20,495 nt of DNA from a virus: positions 1 through 20,495 of the IMG/VR virus record IMGVR_UViG_3300020446_000102, one strand, 5' to 3'. Below, piece by piece: positions 3,179-20,495 of this stretch (the first letter of the stretch is position 1; every line of letters starts with the position of its first letter). The position numbers and the translations under genes were made by a program. The notes under the pieces were generated by a model. That model did no database searches and had not been told where the DNA came from. It was given only the letters and a program-made list of their open reading frames with translations.

Positions 3179-4024
3179 GTGCCAGCACCAAGACCAAGAA
3201 GAATATCAGATATAATGCCAAAGTTACAGAATGTTTCTTTGACAACAAATTATTTTGTAAAATTTTCATTACCACCAACTGGTTTAAGATCTCATTTAAG
3301 GAGAAAAGGTATAAATGATAGATTTATATCTGACGATGTAGGATTACTATGTAGTGGTGCAGTATTACCAGGTAGTGCGTTAGCATCACAAAATATAACA
3401 GGTGATTACCAAGGTATGGTTGAAAGATTTGCCCATACTCGCAATTTTACTCAAGTACAATTTGAATTTTACGTTGATAATGAATATAAATCTTTAAAAT
3501 TTATAGAGCACTGGATGGAATACGTAACGGGTGCTAATCAAGTTGATCCTGGTAATGATACATATTATTTCCAACTTAACTACCCAAGTGATTATAAATC
3601 AAATGATACAAGGATAGTGAAATTTGAAAGAGATCATTTTAGATTTTTAGAATATCGTTTTATTGGGTTATTCCCCCTATCACTTAATTCTACCAGAGTT
3701 CAATATGGAAATTCTCAAATTTTGAAAGCAACTGCTTCGTTTAGTTTTGATCGATATATATCTGGTGAATCATCATCCTTACTCAGAGATCTTAGAAGAG
3801 CATATAATGATTTAGGTTTTGGTCGTGGAAATGTAGTTAAGGATGGGTTATCATTAAAAGATGATGAATTGAATGAAATTGCAGAGCGTACAACATTAAG
3901 ATATTTGAATAATGCTGATAATATAAGGAAGGGAAGTTATACTTCATTAAGTCAAAATGGGAGTTCTTCCTATCAATCAAACGTGACTTTACTAGGTACT
4001 TCATCACCAGGAATAAATCCGTAA
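3179..4024 (+). CDS. gp54: Baseplate tail-tube initiator gp54
   Basis: This 281-residue protein (T4 gp54 is about 320) has a tail-tube-like fold. A short basic N-terminus leads to T-N-Y-F-V-K-F-S-L-P-P at 23-33 (a strand like the start of gp19 and gp54), then S-G-A-V-L-P-G-S-A-L at 59-68, where T4 gp54 has Y-S-V-K-M-P-E-N-R-L. Strand segments F-T-Q-V-Q-F-E-F-Y-V-D at 90-100 and a helix with W112-M-E-Y-V follow, as in T4 W-V-N-S-V. In T4, gp54 binds gp48 and starts tube polymerisation. The start chosen is GTG at 3179; the next in-frame ATG at 3215 would remove the conserved-looking basic N-terminus. No good Shine-Dalgarno sequence precedes either. gp19-like paralogy is the main alternative. 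Confidence 0.75.
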   Translation: MPAPRPRRISDIMPKLQNVSLTTNYFVKFSLPPTGLRSHLRRKGINDRFISDDVGLLCSGAVLPGSALASQNITGDYQGMVERFAHTRNFTQVQFEFYVDNEYKSLKFIEHWMEYVTGANQVDPGNDTYYFQLNYPSDYKSNDTRIVKFERDHFRFLEYRFIGLFPLSLNSTRVQYGNSQILKATASFSFDRYISGESSSLLRDLRRAYNDLGFGRGNVVKDGLSLKDDELNEIAERTTLRYLNNADNIRKGSYTSLSQNGSSSYQSNVTLLGTSSPGINP

Positions 4025-4076: not shown

Positions 4077-4796
4077 ATGCCTTTACCACAAATTGCAACA
4101 CCGACATATGAGTTGGTGTTACCTTCGTCAAATCGAAAAATAAAATTTAGACCCTTTTTAGTTAAAGAAGAAAAGATTCTCATCATAGCGATGGAGTCGC
4201 AGGATACAAAACAGATTGCTAATGCTGTCAAAAATGTTATCTCACACTGTATTTTAACAAAAGGAATAAAAGTTGAAAAACTCTCAACATTTGATATTGA
4301 ATACTTATTTTTAAATATTCGTGGAAAATCAGTTGGAGAGGATATAGAAGTGATGGTCACTTGTCCAGATGACGGAAAAACACAAGTTCCAACTTTAATT
4401 AATATTGATTCGATTAAGATTCAAACAAGTGATGAGCATCAAAAGGACATCAAACTTGATGATACTTACACTTTAAGAATGAAATATCCATCTTTAAATG
4501 AGTTTATAAAAAATAACTTTGCAACCGCAGGTGAAATGAACGTTGATGATACATTTGATTTAATTGCATCATGTATAGATCAAGTTTTTTCCGACGAGGA
4601 AAATTGGTCAGGTGCTGATTGCACTAAAAAAGAATTAAAAGATTTCTTAGATCAATTAGAATCAAAACAATTTAAGATGATTGAGAAATTTTTTGAAACT
4701 ATGCCAAAATTATCACACACAGTAAAAGTAACAAATCCAAATACAAAAAAAGAGTGTGAAATTGTAGTTGAGGGACTGCAAAGTTTTTTCGGTTAA
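4077..4796 (+). CDS. gp26: Baseplate hub/assembly protein gp26 (zero-frame product)
   Basis: This 239-residue protein (T4 gp26 is about 208) matches the T4 baseplate protein family: a TYELVLPSSNRKIKFRPF strand region at 10-27, then L-V-K-E-E-K-I-L-I-I-A-M-E-S at 28-41, and I-S-H-C near 55-58. A C-P-D-D-G turn at 96-100 and an Asp/Lys-rich C-terminal half with predicted helices follow. In T4, gp26 is required for hub assembly. Its last codons contain a T TTT TTC slippery heptamer (4784-4790), one codon before the stop, so part of the translation product is predicted to continue in the -1 frame into the next ORF. A late promoter lies just upstream. The family call is firm; a chaperone role is inferred from the frameshift architecture. 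Confidence 0.85.
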   Translation: MPLPQIATPTYELVLPSSNRKIKFRPFLVKEEKILIIAMESQDTKQIANAVKNVISHCILTKGIKVEKLSTFDIEYLFLNIRGKSVGEDIEVMVTCPDDGKTQVPTLINIDSIKIQTSDEHQKDIKLDDTYTLRMKYPSLNEFIKNNFATAGEMNVDDTFDLIASCIDQVFSDEENWSGADCTKKELKDFLDQLESKQFKMIEKFFETMPKLSHTVKVTNPNTKKECEIVVEGLQSFFG

Positions 4797-4826
4797 GTAT
4801 GGCACATGAGGATCTTGCGTCATACT
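4784..4826 (+). promoter_or_regulatory. Predicted programmed -1 ribosomal frameshift signal (slippery heptamer plus stem-loop)
   Basis: In the gp26 frame the codons read AGT TTT TTC GGT TAA, so T_TTT_TTC at 4784-4790 is an exact X_XXY_YYZ heptamer. After a 5-nt spacer (4791-4795), the bases AGTATGGC (4796-4803) pair with GCGTCATACT-side bases 4819-4826 in eight consecutive pairs, one of them a G-U wobble. The stem continues past mismatches at 4804/4818 and 4807/4815. The -1 frame is open from 4772 to the stop at 4979-4981. A slip gives 238 gp26 residues, then Arg-Leu-Ser and the 60-residue ORF, 301 residues in all. The stem also sequesters the AUG at 4799. This is seen directly; function is inferred. 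Confidence 0.72.
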
Positions 4827-4981
4827 ATAAATTGAATTTTGCTTTGATTCAACATCATAAATATAGCTTGACAGAGTTAGAAAATATGATGCCTTGGGAA
4901 AGAGAAATTTATGTTTCACTTCTATCTCAATATGTTGAAGAAGAAAATTTAAAAGCACAACAGCAACAAAATAGTCTATAA
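4799..4981 (+). CDS. Small gp51-position protein, probably made as the -1 frameshift extension of gp26
   Basis: This 60-residue ORF contains L-N-F-A-L-I-Q-H-H-K-Y-S-L-T-E-L-E-N followed by M-P-W-E-R-E-I-Y-V-S-L-L, a pattern typical of short helical tail-assembly proteins, and a Gln-rich end. It starts 2 nt after the gp26 stop in the -1 frame. No Shine-Dalgarno sequence precedes its ATG, and that ATG is inside the predicted frameshift stem. It is therefore better read as the C-terminal domain of a gp26 fusion, as in the lambda G-T and similar tail chaperones, than as a free protein. T4 has gene 51 (hub assembly catalyst) at this position, but I cannot show homology from sequence alone. The stop overlaps the next start (TAATG). 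Confidence 0.7.
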   Translation: MAHEDLASYYKLNFALIQHHKYSLTELENMMPWEREIYVSLLSQYVEEENLKAQQQQNSL

Positions 4982-6576
4982 TGGATGAGGAACAAGGATT
5001 AGCATCGCCACTTGCAGGAGGCATAAGAGCCGTCAGAAGAACGGTATCTTCTAGTGTCTTTAGTGGTCGTCAAGAACCAGTGCAACCTCAAGCAGATCCA
5101 ATAACAACGAATTTACTACAACAAAATACTTTATCACTTAATAATATTTCGGGACAGTTACAAAATATATCATCACAGGTAAGTGGATTAAATAGTTCTT
5201 TACTTGTTATTAAAGATAATCTTACCCTTAGTGATACTTTAGATAGACAAAGAGAGGCAGCAAAACAAAATCGTGAGGCGATATTAGCAGAGCAAGGTTT
5301 AAGAGAAGGAAAAGAAAGTCAAATTGAAAGTCGTATACAACAAGCACTAACGTTTCCCGTCCGTAGAATCGCAGAGAAAACACAATTCGGATTGTCAAGA
5401 TTAACTAATTTCTTCTTAATATTGACAGGTGGATGGTTGACAAATACAGTTGTTAATATGATAAATGCAAATGCTGATGGTAACATTGATTTGTTGAATC
5501 AATTGAAAACAAGATTACAAAGACAATTACTCATAGTTGGTGGAACTATGATTGGATTGAGTTTGGGACTTAAGAGAGTATTGCAGGGAATAGGATTTAT
5601 TGCATCATCAGCATTAAAACTTGCAAGAGGTGGATTAATAAGAAATCCTTTTCTTGCCCTTACAGCGGGTTTAGTAGCAGCAGCAGTAGCATTTCAAGGT
5701 AAACTTCCATCTACGGGAAACACAACACTTGATGTTGCTGGATATGCGACAGCGGGATTAACTTTGCTTGGATTATTTGATTTTTTAAAAAAATCTTTTG
5801 GATCACTAATAAAAAAAATACCAGGTGGAGAGGCAACTGCTAAAAAGGTATCAAACTTTTTTGGTAAAAAAGCAACACAAAAAGCTGCAGAGGAAACTGC
5901 CAAAGCTGTTGGAAAAAAAGGTTTTATGGGATTCTTAAAAGGTGGATTAAAAAGGCTTACAGGCAAACTTGGCGGTCCTTTTGTATCTTTTATTTTACAA
6001 TTAATAAGTGGTGAAAAAATAGATAATGCAATTGCTGGTGCGATTGGATTTGCTGGAGGTGCTGCTATTGGTCAAGCTTTGATACCAATTCCTTTTGTGG
6101 GTGCATTACTTGGTGGTATTCTAGGAGAGGAGGGTATTAAATCAATATACAAAGGAATTAAATTCTTTCTTGGATTTAGAGAAAAAGAGATAGAAGACGT
6201 AGAAACCACAGACCCATTAGCAGAATTGAGTTTAAAAGATGGCATATCTGAGAATGTAAGTGATTTACAATCGTCTAATGTAGCGATGAATACTGGAAGT
6301 GAAGATCTCTTTAGTTTGTCTAATCAAATTGGAGATGTATCTGATAATATAGTTCCTGTAAAGAATGATAACGTTTCAATAGCTGATGCTATATCAAATG
6401 TAGAGGAGGGTACAGCTGAAATTGTAACACTTGCATTAAATAATAATCAACAAACAAAAGGAACCTCTGGTTTCACTGATTCAGGTGGAGAAACGAATCA
6501 ACTACCTAATATTGGTTTCGATAGAAATAATATTCATACGTTATTTGCAACATCACAATATGGAGCTAACGCATGA
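4981..6576 (+). CDS. Hydrophobic virion structural protein, candidate tape measure (531 aa)
   Basis: No T4 family is recognised with certainty. Residues 38-125 are Gln/Ser/Asn-rich and helical, including a likely coiled coil at 85-125. Several apolar segments follow: 142-163 (F-F-L-I-L-T-G-G-W-L), 183-200, 222-238, 252-267 and 350-381 (Gly/Ala/Ile-rich), separated by Lys-rich patches. The C-terminal 130 residues are acidic and polar. Tape-measure proteins have this mix of long helices and transmembrane-like segments, and the gene directly follows the gp26 frameshift unit, the position of a tape measure in many phages. T4 gp29, the known tape measure, is 590 residues. The start overlaps the preceding stop by one base, and its end overlaps the next gene by four (ATGA). 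The function is inferred. Confidence 0.8.
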   Translation: MDEEQGLASPLAGGIRAVRRTVSSSVFSGRQEPVQPQADPITTNLLQQNTLSLNNISGQLQNISSQVSGLNSSLLVIKDNLTLSDTLDRQREAAKQNREAILAEQGLREGKESQIESRIQQALTFPVRRIAEKTQFGLSRLTNFFLILTGGWLTNTVVNMINANADGNIDLLNQLKTRLQRQLLIVGGTMIGLSLGLKRVLQGIGFIASSALKLARGGLIRNPFLALTAGLVAAAVAFQGKLPSTGNTTLDVAGYATAGLTLLGLFDFLKKSFGSLIKKIPGGEATAKKVSNFFGKKATQKAAEETAKAVGKKGFMGFLKGGLKRLTGKLGGPFVSFILQLISGEKIDNAIAGAIGFAGGAAIGQALIPIPFVGALLGGILGEEGIKSIYKGIKFFLGFREKEIEDVETTDPLAELSLKDGISENVSDLQSSNVAMNTGSEDLFSLSNQIGDVSDNIVPVKNDNVSIADAISNVEEGTAEIVTLALNNNQQTKGTSGFTDSGGETNQLPNIGFDRNNIHTLFATSQYGANA

Positions 6577-7946: not shown

Positions 7947-9259
7947 TGGCAGCAATAGATAAATCACTTTACGAAAAATTTGAAATAGAAAACGTTGATA
8001 GGTCTCGAACTGTCGATATAAAAGGTGGTGTTGTTAGTTTTAATTATTATGAGGATGTATTTTCACCCATGAAAACAGCAAGAATTGTTGTAGCGAATAC
8101 AGGTAATGTTATTGAGGGGGATGATGGTAAATTACAATCAATATATAATGGTTTACCGTTAAGGGGTGGAGAGAGAATCATCATAAAAATCGCAGGAAAT
8201 TCATTAGAAAATGAGGGGTTAGAAATAGAAGATTTTTATGTTGGATCAATAACAGACGTAATGATAGACGAACAGAGAGAGTCTTTTGTATTGAATTTAA
8301 TATCACGGGAAGCGATTACTAATGAAACAGTACGGGTAGGTAAGAGATTTCCTGCATCGCAAAAAATATCTGACAGTGTTAAAGATATTTGTAAGAATTA
8401 TTTAAGTTCCGATAAATTAAAAGATGTTGATGAAACTCAAAATCCCTATGGTTTCATCGCGAATATGAGAAAACCCTTTACCATCTTGACTATGTTAGCA
8501 TCAAAATCAGTGCCTGGTAATATTTCTGGAAAGAACGCAACTGCAGGATATTTTTTCTTTGAAACACAAAATGGTTTTAATTTTAAATCAATTGATAAAT
8601 TAATAAGTACAAAACCATTCCCTGAAAAATATGTTTACACACCAAGCATTATAGATTCAAATGATCCAAAAAAAGATTTTAAAATATTAGAATTTAAAAC
8701 TTCTAAAAATCAAAATTTATTAGAAAACCTTGAAAGAGGATCCTATTGTAGTTCTCGTACTTTTTTAAATCCATTAACATTTCAATATACACCATCAACA
8801 CAAGCGATATTTAAATTGCAAGATTACTCTGGAAAAATAGAAAATCTTGGAGATGATATAAATGTGGTGCTACCAGCATTAAGTGATACAGATAATCGTA
8901 CACTGGCATCTGTACCAAGTCGTTATATAACTGGTGTGTTGGATATAGGCACTATTGATAAAGATGTATCAGAGGTTTTAAACGCAGATCCTGCCTTAAT
9001 ACATTCACAGTCCATGATGAGATATAATACACTTTTCACTCAAATATTAACTATGGTTATCCCACTTAATACAAATTTAACAGCAGGTAACATAGTTAAT
9101 TGTGAATTTCCAAGAATTGATGTTGAAAAAAGAAAAGAACCTGACCAAGAACAAAGTGGATTATATATGATAAAAAAGTTAACTCATTTTTTTGATTCAA
9201 CTGGTTCATATACAAAATTGCAACTTGTTAGAGATACAACTGGGAGGAAACCAAAATGA
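7946..9259 (+). CDS. gp27: Baseplate hub subunit gp27
   Basis: This 437-residue protein (T4 gp27 is about 391) lies immediately upstream of gp5, its partner in T4. The N-terminal domain begins L-Y-E-K-F-E-I-E-N-V-D, then V-S-F-N-Y-Y-E-D-V-F-S-P-M-K-T-A-R-I-V-V near residues 31-49, a pattern typical of gp27-like hub proteins whose first barrel forms the tube-like trimer ring. A region with I-S-R-E-A-I-T-N-E and the following helix matches the hub middle domain. The C-terminal part ends G-L-Y-M-I-K-K-L-T-H-F-F-D and a final strand, as in contractile-tail hub proteins. In T4, gp27 trimers form the cup that holds gp5 and meets the tail tube. Start and stop overlap both neighbours by 1 and 4 bases. 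Confidence 0.85.
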   Translation: MAAIDKSLYEKFEIENVDRSRTVDIKGGVVSFNYYEDVFSPMKTARIVVANTGNVIEGDDGKLQSIYNGLPLRGGERIIIKIAGNSLENEGLEIEDFYVGSITDVMIDEQRESFVLNLISREAITNETVRVGKRFPASQKISDSVKDICKNYLSSDKLKDVDETQNPYGFIANMRKPFTILTMLASKSVPGNISGKNATAGYFFFETQNGFNFKSIDKLISTKPFPEKYVYTPSIIDSNDPKKDFKILEFKTSKNQNLLENLERGSYCSSRTFLNPLTFQYTPSTQAIFKLQDYSGKIENLGDDINVVLPALSDTDNRTLASVPSRYITGVLDIGTIDKDVSEVLNADPALIHSQSMMRYNTLFTQILTMVIPLNTNLTAGNIVNCEFPRIDVEKRKEPDQEQSGLYMIKKLTHFFDSTGSYTKLQLVRDTTGRKPK

Positions 9260-11802
9260 TTGAAAATACATTAATACAAAGTAATTTTCTTGGAAGAGAC
9301 GGATTTAAATGGTGGGTTGGTCAAGTTGCACCAGAGGATGCACAGGGTGGTCAAATAAATGGAGCAGGTTGGGGTAATCGTGTCAAAGTCAGAATATTAG
9401 GATATCATCCAGATAATGATATAGAATTAAAAAACGAGGAATTACCATACGCACATGTATTAATATCACCAGAATCTGGCACAGGTAGGGCAGGTCGAAG
9501 TAAACCCATTAAAATATCACCAGGTGATACAGTTTTAGGTTTCTTTTTAGATGGTGATACAGCACAACAACCTGTTATTTTAGGACTTTTTTCAAGTACG
9601 ATAGCTGCAAGTGCTATTTCAAAGGATAAGCAATATACAAAACCTTTTGTTCCGTTTACAGGATACACCAGCAAGGTTAAACCAAATGATAATATTGCAC
9701 AAAATGAATCGGGAGATCAAAATAGTTCTTCAAGTCCTACTAATCGACAAGTAGATACAGATACCGCTAAAAAAATTGAAGAGAGAACAGGCACAACAAC
9801 TAGAGTAGCAAGTTCGGTTATAGGAACCACTGTCACAGCAGGTGATACTGGTGGTGCTAGGTCTGCTGTGAATAAGATAAGTTCTACGTTAGAAAATTCA
9901 CTTAAAAGTTTTCAGGGTGCAACTGCTCAACAACAATTTCAAATATTATCGGAATCAGCGAGAGACATAGCTTCAGCAGCAACAGGTATGTCAGCGAGTA
10001 TGATTACATCAACTTTTGATGACATGGCACCAAAACTTAATGATGGATTGAATAATCTCTACAAATCAGAATATGGAAAGGTGTTTGCACAAACACTGGA
10101 TATATCAAAGGCAAAAAAAGCAGCACAAGCAGCTCAAATAGCAAAAGTACCTGCTATAAAAGGATTAGAAAATTTTATTCCATGTGCGATGAAAAATGTG
10201 ACAGATAAACTACAAGGTAATATCGCAAGTTTACTTGCTCCATTTCTTCAAAATGTTTCTAATATTACCCCTTGTATTGTGGATCAATTTACAGCTGGAA
10301 TATTAAACAGTATTATAGGTAGTATTGATGAAGCGTTACAACCACTCATGGGTGATATTTCTGATATATTTCCTGGTAATATATCCGATATGTTAAGATC
10401 AAAAGCAGAGGGTTTACTTGGATTATCATCTATATTAGAATGTGATTTGCCAACTGCTTCTGATAATTTAGGATCAAAAACTAATCAGTGGGTTATTGGA
10501 AAAGGACCAAAAAATATTCCGATGCCACCAATTGAAAATCTTGCTAATAAATTACTTGGGGTTGCTAATGCTGCACAATCTATACAAGAGGCAGCAGGTG
10601 CACCAGGAGGAGTAGTTGGTAACTTATTAAGTGGAGTTAATTTACCAGGTTTAGGTGCATTTGATTTCATGAGTGCAGCAAGTAATGAACCAGGATTTAA
10701 AAGTGCATTAGGTGATTGTTATACTGGACCTCCATTAAACTGCTCTGGAATTGATATTAAGATTTTCGGAGGTGGAGGAGAAGGAGCTACCGCACAAGCA
10801 ATAATTGGAGCACTAGTTGGTGATGCTTTTGCAGAGCAAACAGGAAGTTTAATAGGGGTAAAATTGACGAATGGTGGAAGTAATTATACTTCTGCCCCCT
10901 TTATAGAGATTGTTGATACTTGTAATCAAGGATATGGTGCTGTTGCTAGATCTGTTATTGATTATGATCCATCCTCACCAACTTACCAACAGGTCACTGA
11001 TATTATAATAGTCAGTGGTGGAGAAAATTACCCTGTGATCGAGACAAATGATGATACTTATACTGTGGATCATGTGGTTGTTGTTAACTCAGGTGAGGGT
11101 TATAAAGATACTGACACAGTGACTGATAATGCAGGAAATGAATATCAGATGATTTTAGATGAGAATGGAAAAATTTTGAATGTTATACCACCCAACCCTG
11201 CTTTAAATAATTTGGAGGAAATCAAAGATTTACCTGTATTATCCATCACCACAGATACTGGATTTGGTGCAATTTTAAGTCCTCAATTAGCACCTAGACC
11301 TAATTATCAAGGAGAAATCAAACAAGTTATTGACTGTATCACACCTCGTGATGGAATTGTTGGTTTTATAAATGGTGATCCTTATTATGGACCATTTCAT
11401 ATCCATCCAAACAGAGGGGTTAAGATGGTTGGTGTGGCTCATACAACAACTCCTCATGCTATAATATATGATACTCCTCAAGAAAGTAGATCAGTAAGAG
11501 CTGTTATAGGAACCAGTTCTGGTATGGTTACAGTATCATCTGATAGAGTTGAGTACACCCCACCTGAATCAACCAGTTCATCAAGCACCACACAGATGAC
11601 ACCTGATTTTGGAAGTGGAACTATTACTTATACTTCTCCATCACCAAGTCCATCACCAAGTCCATCACCATCACCAAGTCCATCACCTTCACCTTCACCT
11701 TCACCAAGTCCATCACCATCACCAAGTCCATCACCAAGTCCATCACCATCACCAAGTCCATCACCATCACCAAGTCCATCACCAAGTGGTTATGGTTACT
11801 AA
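9256..11802 (+). CDS. gp5: Baseplate hub / tail spike gp5-like protein without lysozyme domain
   Basis: This 848-residue protein (T4 gp5 is about 575) has a gp5-type OB-fold at 1-120: WWVGQV, W-G-N-R-V-K-V-R-I-L-G-Y-H, L-P-Y-A-H-V-L-I-S-P, then S-P-G-D-T-V-L-G-F-F-L-D-G-D and Q-P-V-I-L-G. Residues 150-500 are Ser/Ala-rich and mostly helical. Beta modules follow with G-G-S-N-Y at 540, G-G-E-N-Y at 588 and S-G-E-G-Y at 613, then an H715-x-H717-P motif with H729 and H734. The chain ends in 25 Ser-Pro repeats and S-G-Y-G-Y. The T4 lysozyme domain (Glu-Asp-Thr triad) is not seen. A strong GGGAGG ribosome site precedes the ATG. Its partner is gp27 just upstream. Confidence 0.85.
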   Translation: MIENTLIQSNFLGRDGFKWWVGQVAPEDAQGGQINGAGWGNRVKVRILGYHPDNDIELKNEELPYAHVLISPESGTGRAGRSKPIKISPGDTVLGFFLDGDTAQQPVILGLFSSTIAASAISKDKQYTKPFVPFTGYTSKVKPNDNIAQNESGDQNSSSSPTNRQVDTDTAKKIEERTGTTTRVASSVIGTTVTAGDTGGARSAVNKISSTLENSLKSFQGATAQQQFQILSESARDIASAATGMSASMITSTFDDMAPKLNDGLNNLYKSEYGKVFAQTLDISKAKKAAQAAQIAKVPAIKGLENFIPCAMKNVTDKLQGNIASLLAPFLQNVSNITPCIVDQFTAGILNSIIGSIDEALQPLMGDISDIFPGNISDMLRSKAEGLLGLSSILECDLPTASDNLGSKTNQWVIGKGPKNIPMPPIENLANKLLGVANAAQSIQEAAGAPGGVVGNLLSGVNLPGLGAFDFMSAASNEPGFKSALGDCYTGPPLNCSGIDIKIFGGGGEGATAQAIIGALVGDAFAEQTGSLIGVKLTNGGSNYTSAPFIEIVDTCNQGYGAVARSVIDYDPSSPTYQQVTDIIIVSGGENYPVIETNDDTYTVDHVVVVNSGEGYKDTDTVTDNAGNEYQMILDENGKILNVIPPNPALNNLEEIKDLPVLSITTDTGFGAILSPQLAPRPNYQGEIKQVIDCITPRDGIVGFINGDPYYGPFHIHPNRGVKMVGVAHTTTPHAIIYDTPQESRSVRAVIGTSSGMVTVSSDRVEYTPPESTSSSSTTQMTPDFGSGTITYTSPSPSPSPSPSPSPSPSPSPSPSPSPSPSPSPSPSPSPSPSPSPSPSPSPSGYGY
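11635..11784 (+). repeat. Low-complexity tandem repeat encoding (Ser-Pro)25
   Basis: Fifty codons encode 25 uninterrupted Ser-Pro dipeptides at the end of gp5. The DNA is built mainly from TCACCAAGTCCA (12 nt) and TCACCA (6 nt) units in mixed order, with a TCACCTTCACCT variant near the middle. Such tandem units are prone to length change by strand slippage. In-frame changes would only lengthen or shorten the Ser-Pro arm. Confidence 0.95.
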
Positions 11803-14641: not shown

Positions 14642-17600
14642 ATGCCTCTTAATAAGTTAGAGAATTTTTTAAAGAATACCGAGGGTCGTGTTCTTTATGT
14701 AAATCCAAATGATCTTGATTCAACCGATGGTATTGAAAATCAAGGTAACTCATTAACCAAACCCTTCAAAACAATTCAGAGAGCACTTATTGAAGCTGCG
14801 AGATTCTCCTATCTTAAAGGTGATGATAATGATTTAGTAGAAAGAACAACGATACTATTATTTCCAGGTGATCATGAAATAGATAATCGACCTGGTTTTG
14901 GTATTCGTAATGAATCTAGTACCGCAAAGGCAATAAGTCCAAGTGGTGCATCTACGGGTGCAATTAATACTTTAACTCTGAATCTCAATTCAAGTTTTGA
15001 TTTAAGTCAAGAAGATAATATTTTATATAAATTTAACAGTGTTCATGGTGGAGTTATTGTACCTAGAGGTACTTCAATTGTTGGATTAGACTTAAGAAAA
15101 ACAAAAATTAGACCATTATATGTCCCAAATCCTACAGATCCTAATGTAAAGAGCACTGCTATATTCAGAATCACTGGTGCTTGTTATTTTTGGCAATTTA
15201 CATTTTTTGATGGTGATGAATCAGGTCTTGTATATACAGATCCATCTGACTTTAGTGTAAATAATCAATCTAAACCAACATTTTCACACCATAAGATTAC
15301 TGCATTTGAATATGCTGATGGTGTTAATACACTAGAGCAATTTAGTGAACTGACAGACCTAGACATATACTATAGTAAATTAAGTAATGCTTTCAATAGA
15401 GCATCAAATCGTGAGATTGATCAGAAATATCCAAAAGCAGAGGCAGCATTTGCACCACAAAGACCTGAATTTGAAATAGTTGGTGCTTTTGCTACAGACC
15501 CACTTACAATTTCAAATATTGAATCAGGTGATGGTGCTACACCAGGTCAAGTTGTCACAGTAACAACGATTGTTCCTCATAATTTATCAAGTGGCACACC
15601 AATAAAAATTCGTGGTGTAAACGTTGCTGATTACAATATATCAACTAAAGTATCAAATGTTATTGACGTAAATAGATTTCAATACTCACTACCATTTGTT
15701 CGTCCAAACTTACCAGCAGGTTCTGCTGGAGGATTAAGTTCTGCAAATGGTCAAGTATTAGTCGAAACCGATACAGTTACTGGTGCGTCTCCATACATCT
15801 TTAACTGTTCGATGCGTTCTGTATTTGGTATGCAAGGTTTGCATGCAGATGGTGCCAAGGCAACAGGTTTCAGATCAATGGTTACTGCTCAGTTTACTGC
15901 GGTGTCCCTACAAAAAGATGATAGAGCATTTGTTAAATATGACAAGACTAATAGAAGATATAGTGGTATTGCTTTCTCAAAACAAACAGGTGCATTATTA
16001 TCTTCTGAATCATCATCAACCAATCCAAATACTGTATTTCACTTAGATCAGGAAGCAAATTATAGAAAAGAGTTTAGAACAACCCATATTAAAGTAAGTA
16101 ATGATGCTGTTGTTCAGATTGTTTCAGTTTTTGCAATTGGTTTCCATGCTCACTTTGAAATGATAAATGGTGCTGACGCATCAATTACAAACTCTAACTC
16201 TAACTTTGGTTCATTCGCACTTGTTGCTGAAGGATTTAAGAAAGAACCATTTGCTAAAGATAATAAGGGATTTATATCATCTGTCATTACTCCTCGTGCA
16301 GTTGTTAATGAGAATCAGCAAATTGAATATCTACAAACGGAACCAAATGTAGCGGTTGGAAAGAGCACGACTCCTACAAAGTTCTTCTTATTTGCACAAA
16401 ATACCCTTACTTTACCACCATCACATATCGCTCAAGGTTTCCGTATTGGTGCGAAAAAAGGTGAAAAACTATTTGTAGATAAGAATGGAAGCACTTTTGA
16501 AGCAACTGTTGTTATGCCAAATGGTAGTTCTGGAACGACCAATACATCAGAGAAGAGTGTAGAGGCAACTCATTCTGCTGCGTCTGCATCTCTAAAATCT
16601 GTTTTTACAATTATAGGTTCTCATGAATTAGCAAATGGCGAATCAATTAGAATTCAATCCGATAATGGAGATTTACCTGAAAATATTGAACCACATCGTG
16701 TTTATTTTGCGATTACGAATGCGAAGGATACATCTTTATCTCCTAATCAAATCCGTATTGCGTCTTCAAAAACTAATGCAGATCTTACGGTTCCTGTTTT
16801 TGTAAATACAGTTGCAAATACAACAGATAAATTTAGAATTATAAGTAGAGTTTCAGATAAGAAACCGAATGAACCAGGTCATCCAATACAATTTGATTCG
16901 ACTGCTGGACAGTGGTTTGTCCATACACTAGCAGCTGGTAATACTATTCATGACGGTACTGCATTATATGCAAATGCATCACAAGATGATTTAACATATG
17001 TATTAAGAAAAGATGACGATAGAAGTTTAGATGAGAAAATATACAAATTAAGATATATTGTTCCAAAAGAATTATCAAATGGTAGAGATCCAACAGATGG
17101 ATTTGTATTACAAGATTCAAGTTCTACAAATGTACTTACCGCTGCAGATTTTAATAAAAACACTCTAACAGCAAATGACTATGAATTTAATCGTAATACT
17201 AGATTTATATCACATGCTAGTTTTGATAGCACTGATAATTTAGTTAAAGTTAGATCTGATAAGATTCATAATTTAGGTGTTGGTGATCAAATAGTTGTTA
17301 GAAATATCCAAAGTTCTACCAATAGTGCTGGTGTATTCAATAAAGGTTATAATGGTACATTCACTGTTAATGAGATTGTTAATGATAAGGAATTTAGATA
17401 TTCTAATACAGATACTGATGGTGTGATTCATACCGTAGGTGATTTTATCAACAATACACATACTCGCACATCTACACTTCCTAGATTTGATAGGAACAAC
17501 AATAGTGGAAATTTCTTCATCTATAGAACTGAAACAATATCACCATATATTCAAGATGTTCAAGATGGTGTATATCATCTATTCGTATTGAATAGTAATA

Positions 17601-20495
17601 ACTCAATTGATGAAGTATCTGATGAGTTTAAAGAAAACAAATATAATCAGAACATAGTCAACTTATACCCTGAGTATGATCGTGATAATGTAGATGCTAA
17701 TCCACCTGCAGCAACATCTTATGCAAAGAGATTTCCGATAGGTGAAGTTGTTACTAACAGTTTACAGAATAGTATTACAAGAGAGACTACAAACCAATTT
17801 TTGAAGAATTTTGATTTATCAATTGGAATCTCAACATTAACAGATAATGGAACTAACGCAGTGCTCACATTAGATGAAGAGCATGGTTTACAATCTCTTA
17901 AATTTCATACAACATTAAATGGTGGTAGTGGTCACGTAAATGGCACTTATCATAATATTAAACTTTTTAATAATAATTCAACTCCTACGTCAGCACCTTG
18001 GGATGGTGCAACTGCTCATGTTGAAGTATCTGGTAATGCAGTCACATCAGTTCAAATAACTGAAGGTGGATCAGGTTATGCAGATGGTGAGACTCTATTT
18101 TTTGATAGTTCAACTTTAGCAGATGGTGGTATTGGTGGTTCACCAAACGCAAATATAGTTATCGGAACTCTTGGTATATCATCAGCTACTGGTAATTATG
18201 TACAAGTTACGGGATTATCAACTGGAACTGACTCATATCATCGTATTGCATCAGTAAACAGTTCTAAGCAACTAACAATTACAAAAACAGCAACTGATGT
18301 TATATTAAATGGTCAGCAAATCCAAGACATGGGACCTTGGGTTGCAGTTGGAACTGCAAACTTTACAACAGGTATAACTGAATTTACAACACCAGTAGAT
18401 CATGGACTGTCTGTTGGTAATAAATTCAGGGTACTGAATAGTAGCGATTCTAATCTTGGAGATTTTGTTGTTACCTCTGTTGTAGGAGTAAATACATTCT
18501 CTGCTAAGACAACAACCAGTTTAACAGATCCAAAATATATCTTAAAACATGGTTTGTCTGATAATGAAGCTATTTCTGGATCTGATGGAGAAAATATTGC
18601 TGTTCGAGGTTATAATGCTTTTGATCATGAAACCTTAATACTTAATGAGACGATTGATACTTCACTTTCTGCATTTAAAGTTAAATTACCTGGTGATGGT
18701 TTAACCTCCGCACAAAGCATAGATGCAACCTCAATAACAAAACGTTTCCCTCTTGGATCATACATCCAGATTGGAAGTGAGATTATGCGTGTTGCATCAA
18801 GTTCACTTGGTGGTGGAGGAGATGACCTTACGGTGGTACGTGGTTCATTAGGAACTAATTCTCAAAATCATTTAATCAACTCTAGAATTAAAAAAATAAA
18901 ACCGATTCCAATAGAACTTCGTAGACCATCTATATTAAGGTCTTCGGGACACACATTTGAATATGTTGGTTTTGGTCCAGGTAACTATTCGACTGCACTT
19001 CCACAATTACAAAATAGAACATTATCTGAGAGGGAGGAGTTCCTTAATCAATCTCAGGAAACATCTTGCGGTAACGTTGTTTACACTGGTATGAATGACA
19101 AGGGTGATTTCTATATTGGAAATACAAAAATATCATCTGCAAGTGGACAACAAACAACCTTTGATATACCTGTCCCAACAGTAACGGGTGAGGATCCAAA
19201 TCGACTCAGTTTTGTTGCTGATGAAGTCATCGTTAAGGAGAGACTATTAGTTGAAGGTGGTTCATCAAAACAAATATTATCACAGTTTGATGGTCCTGTT
19301 ACATTTAATAGTGATGTTCGTCTTTCTGATGACCAAAAACAAATTACAATTGAACCAGAAATTAGAGCAAGAGATGCTAACTTTAAGGATACATTAAATT
19401 CCACAAGCACAACAACTGGTGCTGTGACTGTTGAGGGTGGAGTAGGAATTGCAAAGAGTGTTCATATTGGTGGTGATTTAGTAGGTAATAATACAGGTTT
19501 TTCTGGAGTTCCAGATATTGTAGGATTTGGTTCGATAACTGCAACTAATTTCTTTGGTAATGGTGCGAACCTTACTAACACTGGTGCTGAGATAAGTCAG
19601 CCAACATCAGGTAGTGACCAATTTATTGTTTTCACTGATGTGACTAGTGGCACTATGGTTACAGGTGGAATAGATCAAAAATTAAAATATGATGTTGTAA
19701 ATAATCAACTTCATTTAGAAGATAATATTGGAATATCATTAGGTGATTCTGATGATGCAACATTTAAACACACACCTACAAGTGGAACACAAATAGAACA
19801 TACAGGAAATGATGATTTAAGATTTAGATTGGGTCAGAATCAGATGATTTTTGAGAAAACATCTGGAGAAAACTTCATAGTTTTAGACCATTCATCAGGT
19901 GAGACTAGATTAGCACATGATGGTTCTACTAAATTAGCAACTAAATCTGATGGTGTTGATATAACAGGAACTCTTGATGTCTCTACATCAGCAACTATTG
20001 ATAATATTCAAATTGATGTTACTACAAGAACTATTGAATCAACTGGTGGAAACTTAATTCTAACTGCTTCAACCGCTGATATAGATGTAACTGGTGAATT
20101 ATTTGTTTCAGATAAATTACATGTTGCATCAACACAACAAGGAAGTAGCACAGATGGCTCAATTCACGCAGAGGGTGGCATATTAGCAGAGAAACAAATT
20201 CATAGTAATAATGATATTGTTGCATTTAGTTCTTCTGATATTACACTGAAAGAAAACATTTCTCCAATTCAAAATGCTCTAGACAAGGTGATGTCTCTTA
20301 CTGGTAATGTATTTGCTTGGAAACCTGAAGCAAGTGAATTGGGTAATACGGGGATGGATACAGGTATTCTTGCTCAAGAAGTTGAGAAATTAGGATTACC
20401 TGGTGTCACAAGAGAAAGAAATGGAATCAAATCAGTTCGTTATGAAAGATTAATTCCAGTCTTGATTGAGGCAGTCAAAGAATTAACAGATAGAG
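14642..20495 (+). CDS. Giant tail fibre / structural protein with S74 intramolecular chaperone end (3' truncated)
   Basis: The frame is open from ATG 14642 to the window edge (1951 full codons), and in-frame translation was checked at several points. The N-terminus has a beta-helix opening: Y-V-N-P-N-D at 19-24, then K-P-F-K-T-I-Q-R-A-L. A G-L-H-A-D-G-A-K-A-T-G-F motif lies near 400. Six H-(G/N/E)-L modules begin at His 313, 661, 876, 1081, 1254 and 1303. A G-G-S-G-Y motif is at 1142. A stalk follows, with V-E-G-G-V-G-I-A-K near 1597. The end matches the endosialidase-type S74 chaperone: S1865-D1866-I-T-L-K-E-N-I, G-I-L-A-Q-E-V-E and R-Y-E-R-L-I-P-V-L. In that family the chaperone trimerises the fibre and cuts itself off at the Ser-Asp bond. 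No ribosome site stands out. Confidence 0.88.
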   Translation, partial: MPLNKLENFLKNTEGRVLYVNPNDLDSTDGIENQGNSLTKPFKTIQRALIEAARFSYLKGDDNDLVERTTILLFPGDHEIDNRPGFGIRNESSTAKAISPSGASTGAINTLTLNLNSSFDLSQEDNILYKFNSVHGGVIVPRGTSIVGLDLRKTKIRPLYVPNPTDPNVKSTAIFRITGACYFWQFTFFDGDESGLVYTDPSDFSVNNQSKPTFSHHKITAFEYADGVNTLEQFSELTDLDIYYSKLSNAFNRASNREIDQKYPKAEAAFAPQRPEFEIVGAFATDPLTISNIESGDGATPGQVVTVTTIVPHNLSSGTPIKIRGVNVADYNISTKVSNVIDVNRFQYSLPFVRPNLPAGSAGGLSSANGQVLVETDTVTGASPYIFNCSMRSVFGMQGLHADGAKATGFRSMVTAQFTAVSLQKDDRAFVKYDKTNRRYSGIAFSKQTGALLSSESSSTNPNTVFHLDQEANYRKEFRTTHIKVSNDAVVQIVSVFAIGFHAHFEMINGADASITNSNSNFGSFALVAEGFKKEPFAKDNKGFISSVITPRAVVNENQQIEYLQTEPNVAVGKSTTPTKFFLFAQNTLTLPPSHIAQGFRIGAKKGEKLFVDKNGSTFEATVVMPNGSSGTTNTSEKSVEATHSAASASLKSVFTIIGSHELANGESIRIQSDNGDLPENIEPHRVYFAITNAKDTSLSPNQIRIASSKTNADLTVPVFVNTVANTTDKFRIISRVSDKKPNEPGHPIQFDSTAGQWFVHTLAAGNTIHDGTALYANASQDDLTYVLRKDDDRSLDEKIYKLRYIVPKELSNGRDPTDGFVLQDSSSTNVLTAADFNKNTLTANDYEFNRNTRFISHASFDSTDNLVKVRSDKIHNLGVGDQIVVRNIQSSTNSAGVFNKGYNGTFTVNEIVNDKEFRYSNTDTDGVIHTVGDFINNTHTRTSTLPRFDRNNNSGNFFIYRTETISPYIQDVQDGVYHLFVLNSNNSIDEVSDEFKENKYNQNIVNLYPEYDRDNVDANPPAATSYAKRFPIGEVVTNSLQNSITRETTNQFLKNFDLSIGISTLTDNGTNAVLTLDEEHGLQSLKFHTTLNGGSGHVNGTYHNIKLFNNNSTPTSAPWDGATAHVEVSGNAVTSVQITEGGSGYADGETLFFDSSTLADGGIGGSPNANIVIGTLGISSATGNYVQVTGLSTGTDSYHRIASVNSSKQLTITKTATDVILNGQQIQDMGPWVAVGTANFTTGITEFTTPVDHGLSVGNKFRVLNSSDSNLGDFVVTSVVGVNTFSAKTTTSLTDPKYILKHGLSDNEAISGSDGENIAVRGYNAFDHETLILNETIDTSLSAFKVKLPGDGLTSAQSIDATSITKRFPLGSYIQIGSEIMRVASSSLGGGGDDLTVVRGSLGTNSQNHLINSRIKKIKPIPIELRRPSILRSSGHTFEYVGFGPGNYSTALPQLQNRTLSEREEFLNQSQETSCGNVVYTGMNDKGDFYIGNTKISSASGQQTTFDIPVPTVTGEDPNRLSFVADEVIVKERLLVEGGSSKQILSQFDGPVTFNSDVRLSDDQKQITIEPEIRARDANFKDTLNSTSTTTGAVTVEGGVGIAKSVHIGGDLVGNNTGFSGVPDIVGFGSITATNFFGNGANLTNTGAEISQPTSGSDQFIVFTDVTSGTMVTGGIDQKLKYDVVNNQLHLEDNIGISLGDSDDATFKHTPTSGTQIEHTGNDDLRFRLGQNQMIFEKTSGENFIVLDHSSGETRLAHDGSTKLATKSDGVDITGTLDVSTSATIDNIQIDVTTRTIESTGGNLILTASTADIDVTGELFVSDKLHVASTQQGSSTDGSIHAEGGILAEKQIHSNNDIVAFSSSDITLKENISPIQNALDKVMSLTGNVFAWKPEASELGNTGMDTGILAQEVEKLGLPGVTRERNGIKSVRYERLIPVLIEAVKELTDR

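Follow-up and report, generated by a model that had tools for sequence, protein, structure and literature searches.

The G-T frameshift is widely conserved among phages, and a 2016 review regarded T4 as the exception to it (PMC5009743). According to passages in two citing papers, Vladimirov, Gautam, and Davidson (2022, Virology 566:9-15) identified the chaperone genes of T4-like phages (PMC12846349, PMC10885494). Passages in the same papers describe poly-T slip signals in the T4-like genes for the short tail assembly chaperone (TAC-N; PMC12846349) and, in some T4-like phages, a short gene together with a separate long fusion gene (PMC10885494). As the chaperone genes and the poly-T slip are covered by the 2022 work or by the papers citing it, the core of the finding described below, a chaperone frameshift in T4-like phages, is already published, and the impression in an earlier note on this DNA that the system had not been described does not hold, at least as those passages present the matter. 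The abstract of the 2022 study reportedly names T4 genes 26 and 51 and gives the frameshift as conserved in several T4-like groups. What may be new here are the covarying stem, the Shine-Dalgarno (SD)-like element, the lineages without a start codon and the size of the sample.

We analyzed a stretch of 20,495 nucleotides from a marine T4-like phage, positions 1 to 20,495 of IMG/VR virus record IMGVR_UViG_3300020446_000102 (hereafter the window). Judged by sequence comparison, its gp26 and a 301-residue fusion of gp26 with the following 60-codon frame (ORF60) very probably form a TAC-N/TAC-NC pair made by programmed -1 ribosomal frameshifting. The comparison supports this through phase, heptamer, conservation of the stem and SD-like element, homology and fold.

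The junction in the window

The 3′ end of gp26 reads ...AGT TTT TTC GGT TAA, with a single GGT codon between the slippery heptamer and the stop (Table 1). A spacer of 5 nt (4791-4795) leads to a stem in which 4796-4803 form eight consecutive pairs with 4819-4826, one of them G-U (4802/4820), beyond which an A/C mismatch is followed by pairing of 4805 with 4817. The window RNA folds to -15.1 kcal/mol as compared with -9.1 kcal/mol for shuffles (z -2.5, 1/200). In the -1 frame, translation would continue as FF-RLS-MAHEDL... and stay open to 4981, so that the fusion comprises 238 + 3 + 60 = 301 residues. The AUG of ORF60 (4799-4801) lies inside the stem, 2 nt past the gp26 stop, and no Shine-Dalgarno sequence for it is found 5-13 nt upstream in the window sequence; the GAGGGA element, about 24 nt away, is spaced for the heptamer and not for this AUG. 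Direct reading thus bears out the heptamer, 5-nt spacer and eight-pair stem of the earlier note, as well as its open -1 frame and 60-residue ORF with an AUG in the stem that lacks a Shine-Dalgarno sequence.

Table 1. Features of the window at and around the proposed frameshift junction
Feature	Position	Strand	Remarks
Tail tube protein gene	3179..4024	+	PF23849 E 7.8e-18; phrog_45 E 1.3e-31; upstream of gp26
gp26-type gene, putative short tail assembly chaperone (TAC-N)	4077..4796	+	239 aa; PF12322 T4_baseplate E 7.5e-76; phrog_150 baseplate hub E 4.4e-81
SD-like element GAGGGA, proposed 5′ stimulator	4770..4775	+	8-9 nt 5′ of heptamer
Slippery heptamer T_TTT_TTC	4784..4790	+	gp26 frame, X_XXY_YYZ phase
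-1 frame extension RLS + ORF60 (putative TAC-C domain)	4790..4981	+	phrog_634 E 2.2e-28; cyanophage annotation gp51 'baseplate hub assembly catalyst'
gp26 0-frame stop codon TAA	4794..4796	+	read from sequence
5′ arm, downstream stem	4796..4805	+	4804 mismatched in window phage
3′ arm, downstream stem	4817..4826	+	covariation in relatives at 4804/4818 column
531-aa ORF, tape-measure candidate by position only	4981..6576	+	overlaps ORF60 stop by one base; three hydrophobic segments

Phase and slip site across relatives

The near sample consisted of 80 metagenomic viral loci and cyanophages, and the wider one of distant scans and isolate phages; the nearest named relative of the window by DNA is Prochlorococcus phage P-SSM2, whose small ORF is annotated gp51. 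Alignment of the junction across relatives, a check that the earlier note had proposed, finds the heptamer kept and the ORF60-like domain in the -1 frame at 184 of 188 loci, in frame at 4 and in the +1 frame at none, with a U6N heptamer near the gp26 stop at 182 of the 184, although, since many loci are near-identical, these counts are to be read as records and not as independent lineages (127 distinct junctions among the 182). The seventh base of the heptamer is C at 161 loci, T at 19, and A and G at 1 each. In the junction-containing relatives of the window type, TTTTTTC stands invariantly 10 bases 5′ of the gp26 stop, with the exception of one 236-kb viral contig (L058). The more distant KVP40 junction reads ATTTTTTCGTATAATG. 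In some marine lineages (L123, L149, L168, L169, L171 and L183), gp26 does not stop until 24 nt beyond the slip site, so that the two frames overlap over a longer stretch.

The four in-frame loci are L058 and three T4-like gp51 genes. L058 lacks 2 nt at the slip site (TTTTTGG, within 3205-3220), which joins gp26 and ORF60 in one frame; as proof of a fusion this is weak, since it is a single contig and the loss of 2 nt from a slip run could reflect misassembly. A candidate +1-frame exception, Stenotrophomonas phage IME-SM1 (L095/L197), was rejected: in L196, a genome 99% identical to it, the canonical TTTTTTC GGC TGA is present, so that one T has probably been lost from the slip run of the IME-SM1 record. 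This loss would scramble the annotated gp26 C-terminus relative to L196. IME-SM1, and possibly L058, illustrate how errors in the sequence of the T run can mislead.

Elements flanking the slip site

In the window's clade (72 distinct junctions), 91.3% of the cells of a 10-pair stem are standard-paired, a value that shuffles (86.1%; 0/500 reach 91.3%) and slid versions (at most 51.3%) do not attain. Column pair 21-35 (4804/4818) is variously U-A (28), G-C (18) and A-U (16). It is paired in 73 of 85 taxa, whereas 3000 independent simulations on the gp26 protein tree averaged 33 and never exceeded 59 (0/3000 reach it), and among the paired taxa there are 10 changes on each side and 10 joint ones. 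Constraint on the protein does not explain the covariation, since the pair joins a silent wobble base of an Ala codon to a second codon position. The window phage itself carries the A/C mismatch at this very pair. As a universal feature the stem had to be abandoned, for distant lineages do not keep it; the conservation that the earlier note had proposed to check is found, with covariation, in the window's clade and ends there. An Rfam search returned nothing relevant.

Upstream, an SD-like 4-mer lies within 25 nt of the heptamer, mostly 8-9 nt off, at 77 of 78 near and 52 of 65 far junctions. Codon choice follows suit: Glu232 is GAG in 77 of 85 sequences, whereas the other conserved Glu residues, Glu12 excepted, prefer GAA. 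The SD-like element and the stem would presumably both act as stimulators of slippage.

Protein identity, fold, and gene neighborhood

The match of gp26 to PF12322 scores 255 bits against a curated cut-off of 24.5, and the phrog_150 profile reaches over the small domain as well, spanning both parts. The comparison of the fusion with T4 gp51 that the earlier note had suggested gives an end-to-end profile alignment: T4 gp51 matches the profile of the in-silico fusion over 242 columns, running straight through the junction (probability 99.6, E 9.6e-24). T4 gp26 matches the same profile (probability 99.7) in an alignment that ends at FF, and the two T4 proteins match each other at 98.6. The earlier guess that T4 genes 26 and 51 are a split form of this system is thus right in that they belong to the same homologous system, and wrong in that they are not one gene split in two; rather, they are a short gene and a full-length long gene, that is, paralogues.

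For the natural L058 fusion, a model predicted from an alignment from which 8 rows from annotated records had been left out reached pLDDT 90 and pTM 0.83. Among 998 PDB chains, its best matches, all covering model residues 1-96, were the HK97 tail assembly chaperone (Z 7.4), 3fgx (7.3) and YqbN (7.0), followed by 4.4 for the next; with Z below 8, the match to the TAC fold is moderate. We take 3fgx and YqbN to be TAC relatives. Foldseek alone gave no significant match of the L058 model in the PDB, and a PDB sequence search with the profile gave no relevant one.

As expected of a TAC gene, gp26 comes just after the tail-tube gene. Pfam- and PHROG-type profile searches gave no informative family match for the 531- and 457-aa ORFs that follow the junction; in a related Rhizobium phage, a tape measure is annotated downstream. 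Farther along the window, a tandem 12/48-base repeat (11637-11787) forms the long (Pro-Ser)n C-terminal tail of a gp5-like hub/lysozyme ORF (9256-11802), and an ORF of at least 1951 aa (14642-20494), perhaps for a large structural protein, runs off the window end.

Proposed mechanism and alternative explanations

In the mechanism that we propose, gp26 would be the short chaperone, TAC-N. Ribosomes would probably pause at T_TTT_TTC, where GAGGGA, 8-9 nt upstream, could pair with 16S rRNA and the stem starts 5 nt downstream. A minority would slip back by one base, the Phe-Phe tRNAs re-pairing on UUU-UUU, pass the gp26 stop and add R-L-S and the 60-residue ORF60 domain to yield the 301-aa TAC-NC. 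Together, the short and long forms may then act as lambda gpG and gpGT do, loading the tape-measure protein and initiating assembly of the tail tube. We infer actual slippage and its rate, the effect of the stimulators and the chaperone activity from the comparison above. Against the mechanism stand the absence of the stem in distant lineages, the one stem mismatch in the window, two Vibrio phages without a heptamer and a Z-score for the TAC fold below 8.

Those Vibrio phages, D495 (L096) and BX-1 (L100), have the -1 phase and a TAATG overlap without a slippery heptamer, and they may use coupled reinitiation instead of frameshifting (a viral-contig scan found no relatives of the D495 protein). 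They speak for two separate genes, with ORF60 initiated at its own start codon (AUG at 4799) through termination-reinitiation at TAAGTATG and a -1 phase that would be a by-product of tight packing. So do the deposited annotations, which call two genes, and the AUG that lies 2 nt past the gp26 stop not just in the window but in most near relatives; given this AUG, some separate ORF60 could be made in the window phage too. However, within 14 codons past the slip, 66 of the 182 loci lack an ATG and 41 lack any ATG, GTG or TTG, so that in those the conserved start of the domain can be reached only via gp26. Furthermore, there is no variation in the heptamer codons, in contrast to other Phe codons, R-[IVL]-[AGS] between FF and the AUG site is kept in the -1 frame in most loci, the spacing of the SD-like element fits the heptamer and not the AUG, and T4 gp51 is homologous to the fusion without a break. 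Two separate genes are, all told, a very unlikely account of the junction.

Could the -1 product arise instead by transcriptional slippage on the T6 run? The homopolymer run is indeed invariant, and 19 loci have seven T. Yet the seventh base is mostly C, the X_XXY_YYZ phase is strict, and the SD-like element lies on one side of the run and the covarying stem on the other; six T is moreover a short run for slippage by bacterial RNA polymerase. We rate transcriptional slippage as less probable still than separate genes. It may also be asked whether the heptamer is kept merely through Phe-Phe and codon bias, with no recoding. Such heptamers are common in this AT-rich window, occurring at 54 of 4623 in-frame sites, so that the heptamer by itself is weak evidence and the case rests on comparison; among the 54, 4784-4790 is the only one with an ORF end no more than 15 nt away. 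On the other side, in a set chosen by the heptamer, a ground on which L058 alone of the near relatives was dropped, the slip-site Phe-Phe codons are TTT then TTC in 87 of 87 window-type loci, whereas the conserved Phe205 and Phe206 of the same protein use both codons (TTC/TTT 52/35 and 8/77, respectively). The -1 phase, too, is universal. Conservation without recoding is already contradicted by these data and can practically be dismissed. Programmed ribosomal frameshifting, the G/GT-type arrangement that the earlier note had proposed, is hence sustained by the phase, the invariant heptamer, the start-less relatives, the TAC-like fold and the end-to-end homology to T4 gp51.

Comparison with known systems

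In E. coli dnaX, the -1 signal consists of an upstream SD-like element, a heptamer and a downstream hairpin. The present signal shares this three-part layout, and resembles dnaX in that SD-like GAGG lies 8-9 nt upstream of the heptamer in most loci; dnaX differs in gene and product logic, and in a heptamer that is A6G where the present one is U6C. We lean somewhat toward viewing the slip site as a dnaX-like cassette, in which the SD-like element and poly-U heptamer extend across lineages and the covarying hairpin is confined to the window's clade; stimulators would then have been acquired, or exchanged for others, with no change in the relation of the two frames. From lambda the signal differs in its U6C heptamer, and the SD-like element and adjacent stem are nearer to dnaX than to lambda.

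The junction is thus a compact, testable signal, resolved here in unusual detail. In many deposited genomes, the extension is entered as a gene of its own ('baseplate hub assembly catalyst') or left out, as in Aeromonas phage Asswx_1, where the small domain carries no annotation. The data assign the frameshift version of one homologous system to marine, Vibrio (KVP40-like), Aeromonas and Rhizobium T4-like phages, and the version with a duplicated gene to T4. T4 gp26 is homologous to the short form and gp51 to the whole fusion, but genes 26 and 51 are divergently transcribed, unlike the overlapping frames of the window; since T4 obtains both forms from two genes, a frameshift is not needed there. 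The T4-like chaperones of 2022, as passages in the citing papers portray them, share with the window a gp26-type short form, a long form with an extra C-terminal domain and a poly-T slip site in TAC-N. With lambda gpG/gpGT, the window has in common a -1 slip near the end of the short gene, a position after the tail-tube gene and the joining of a small downstream domain (PMC5009743).
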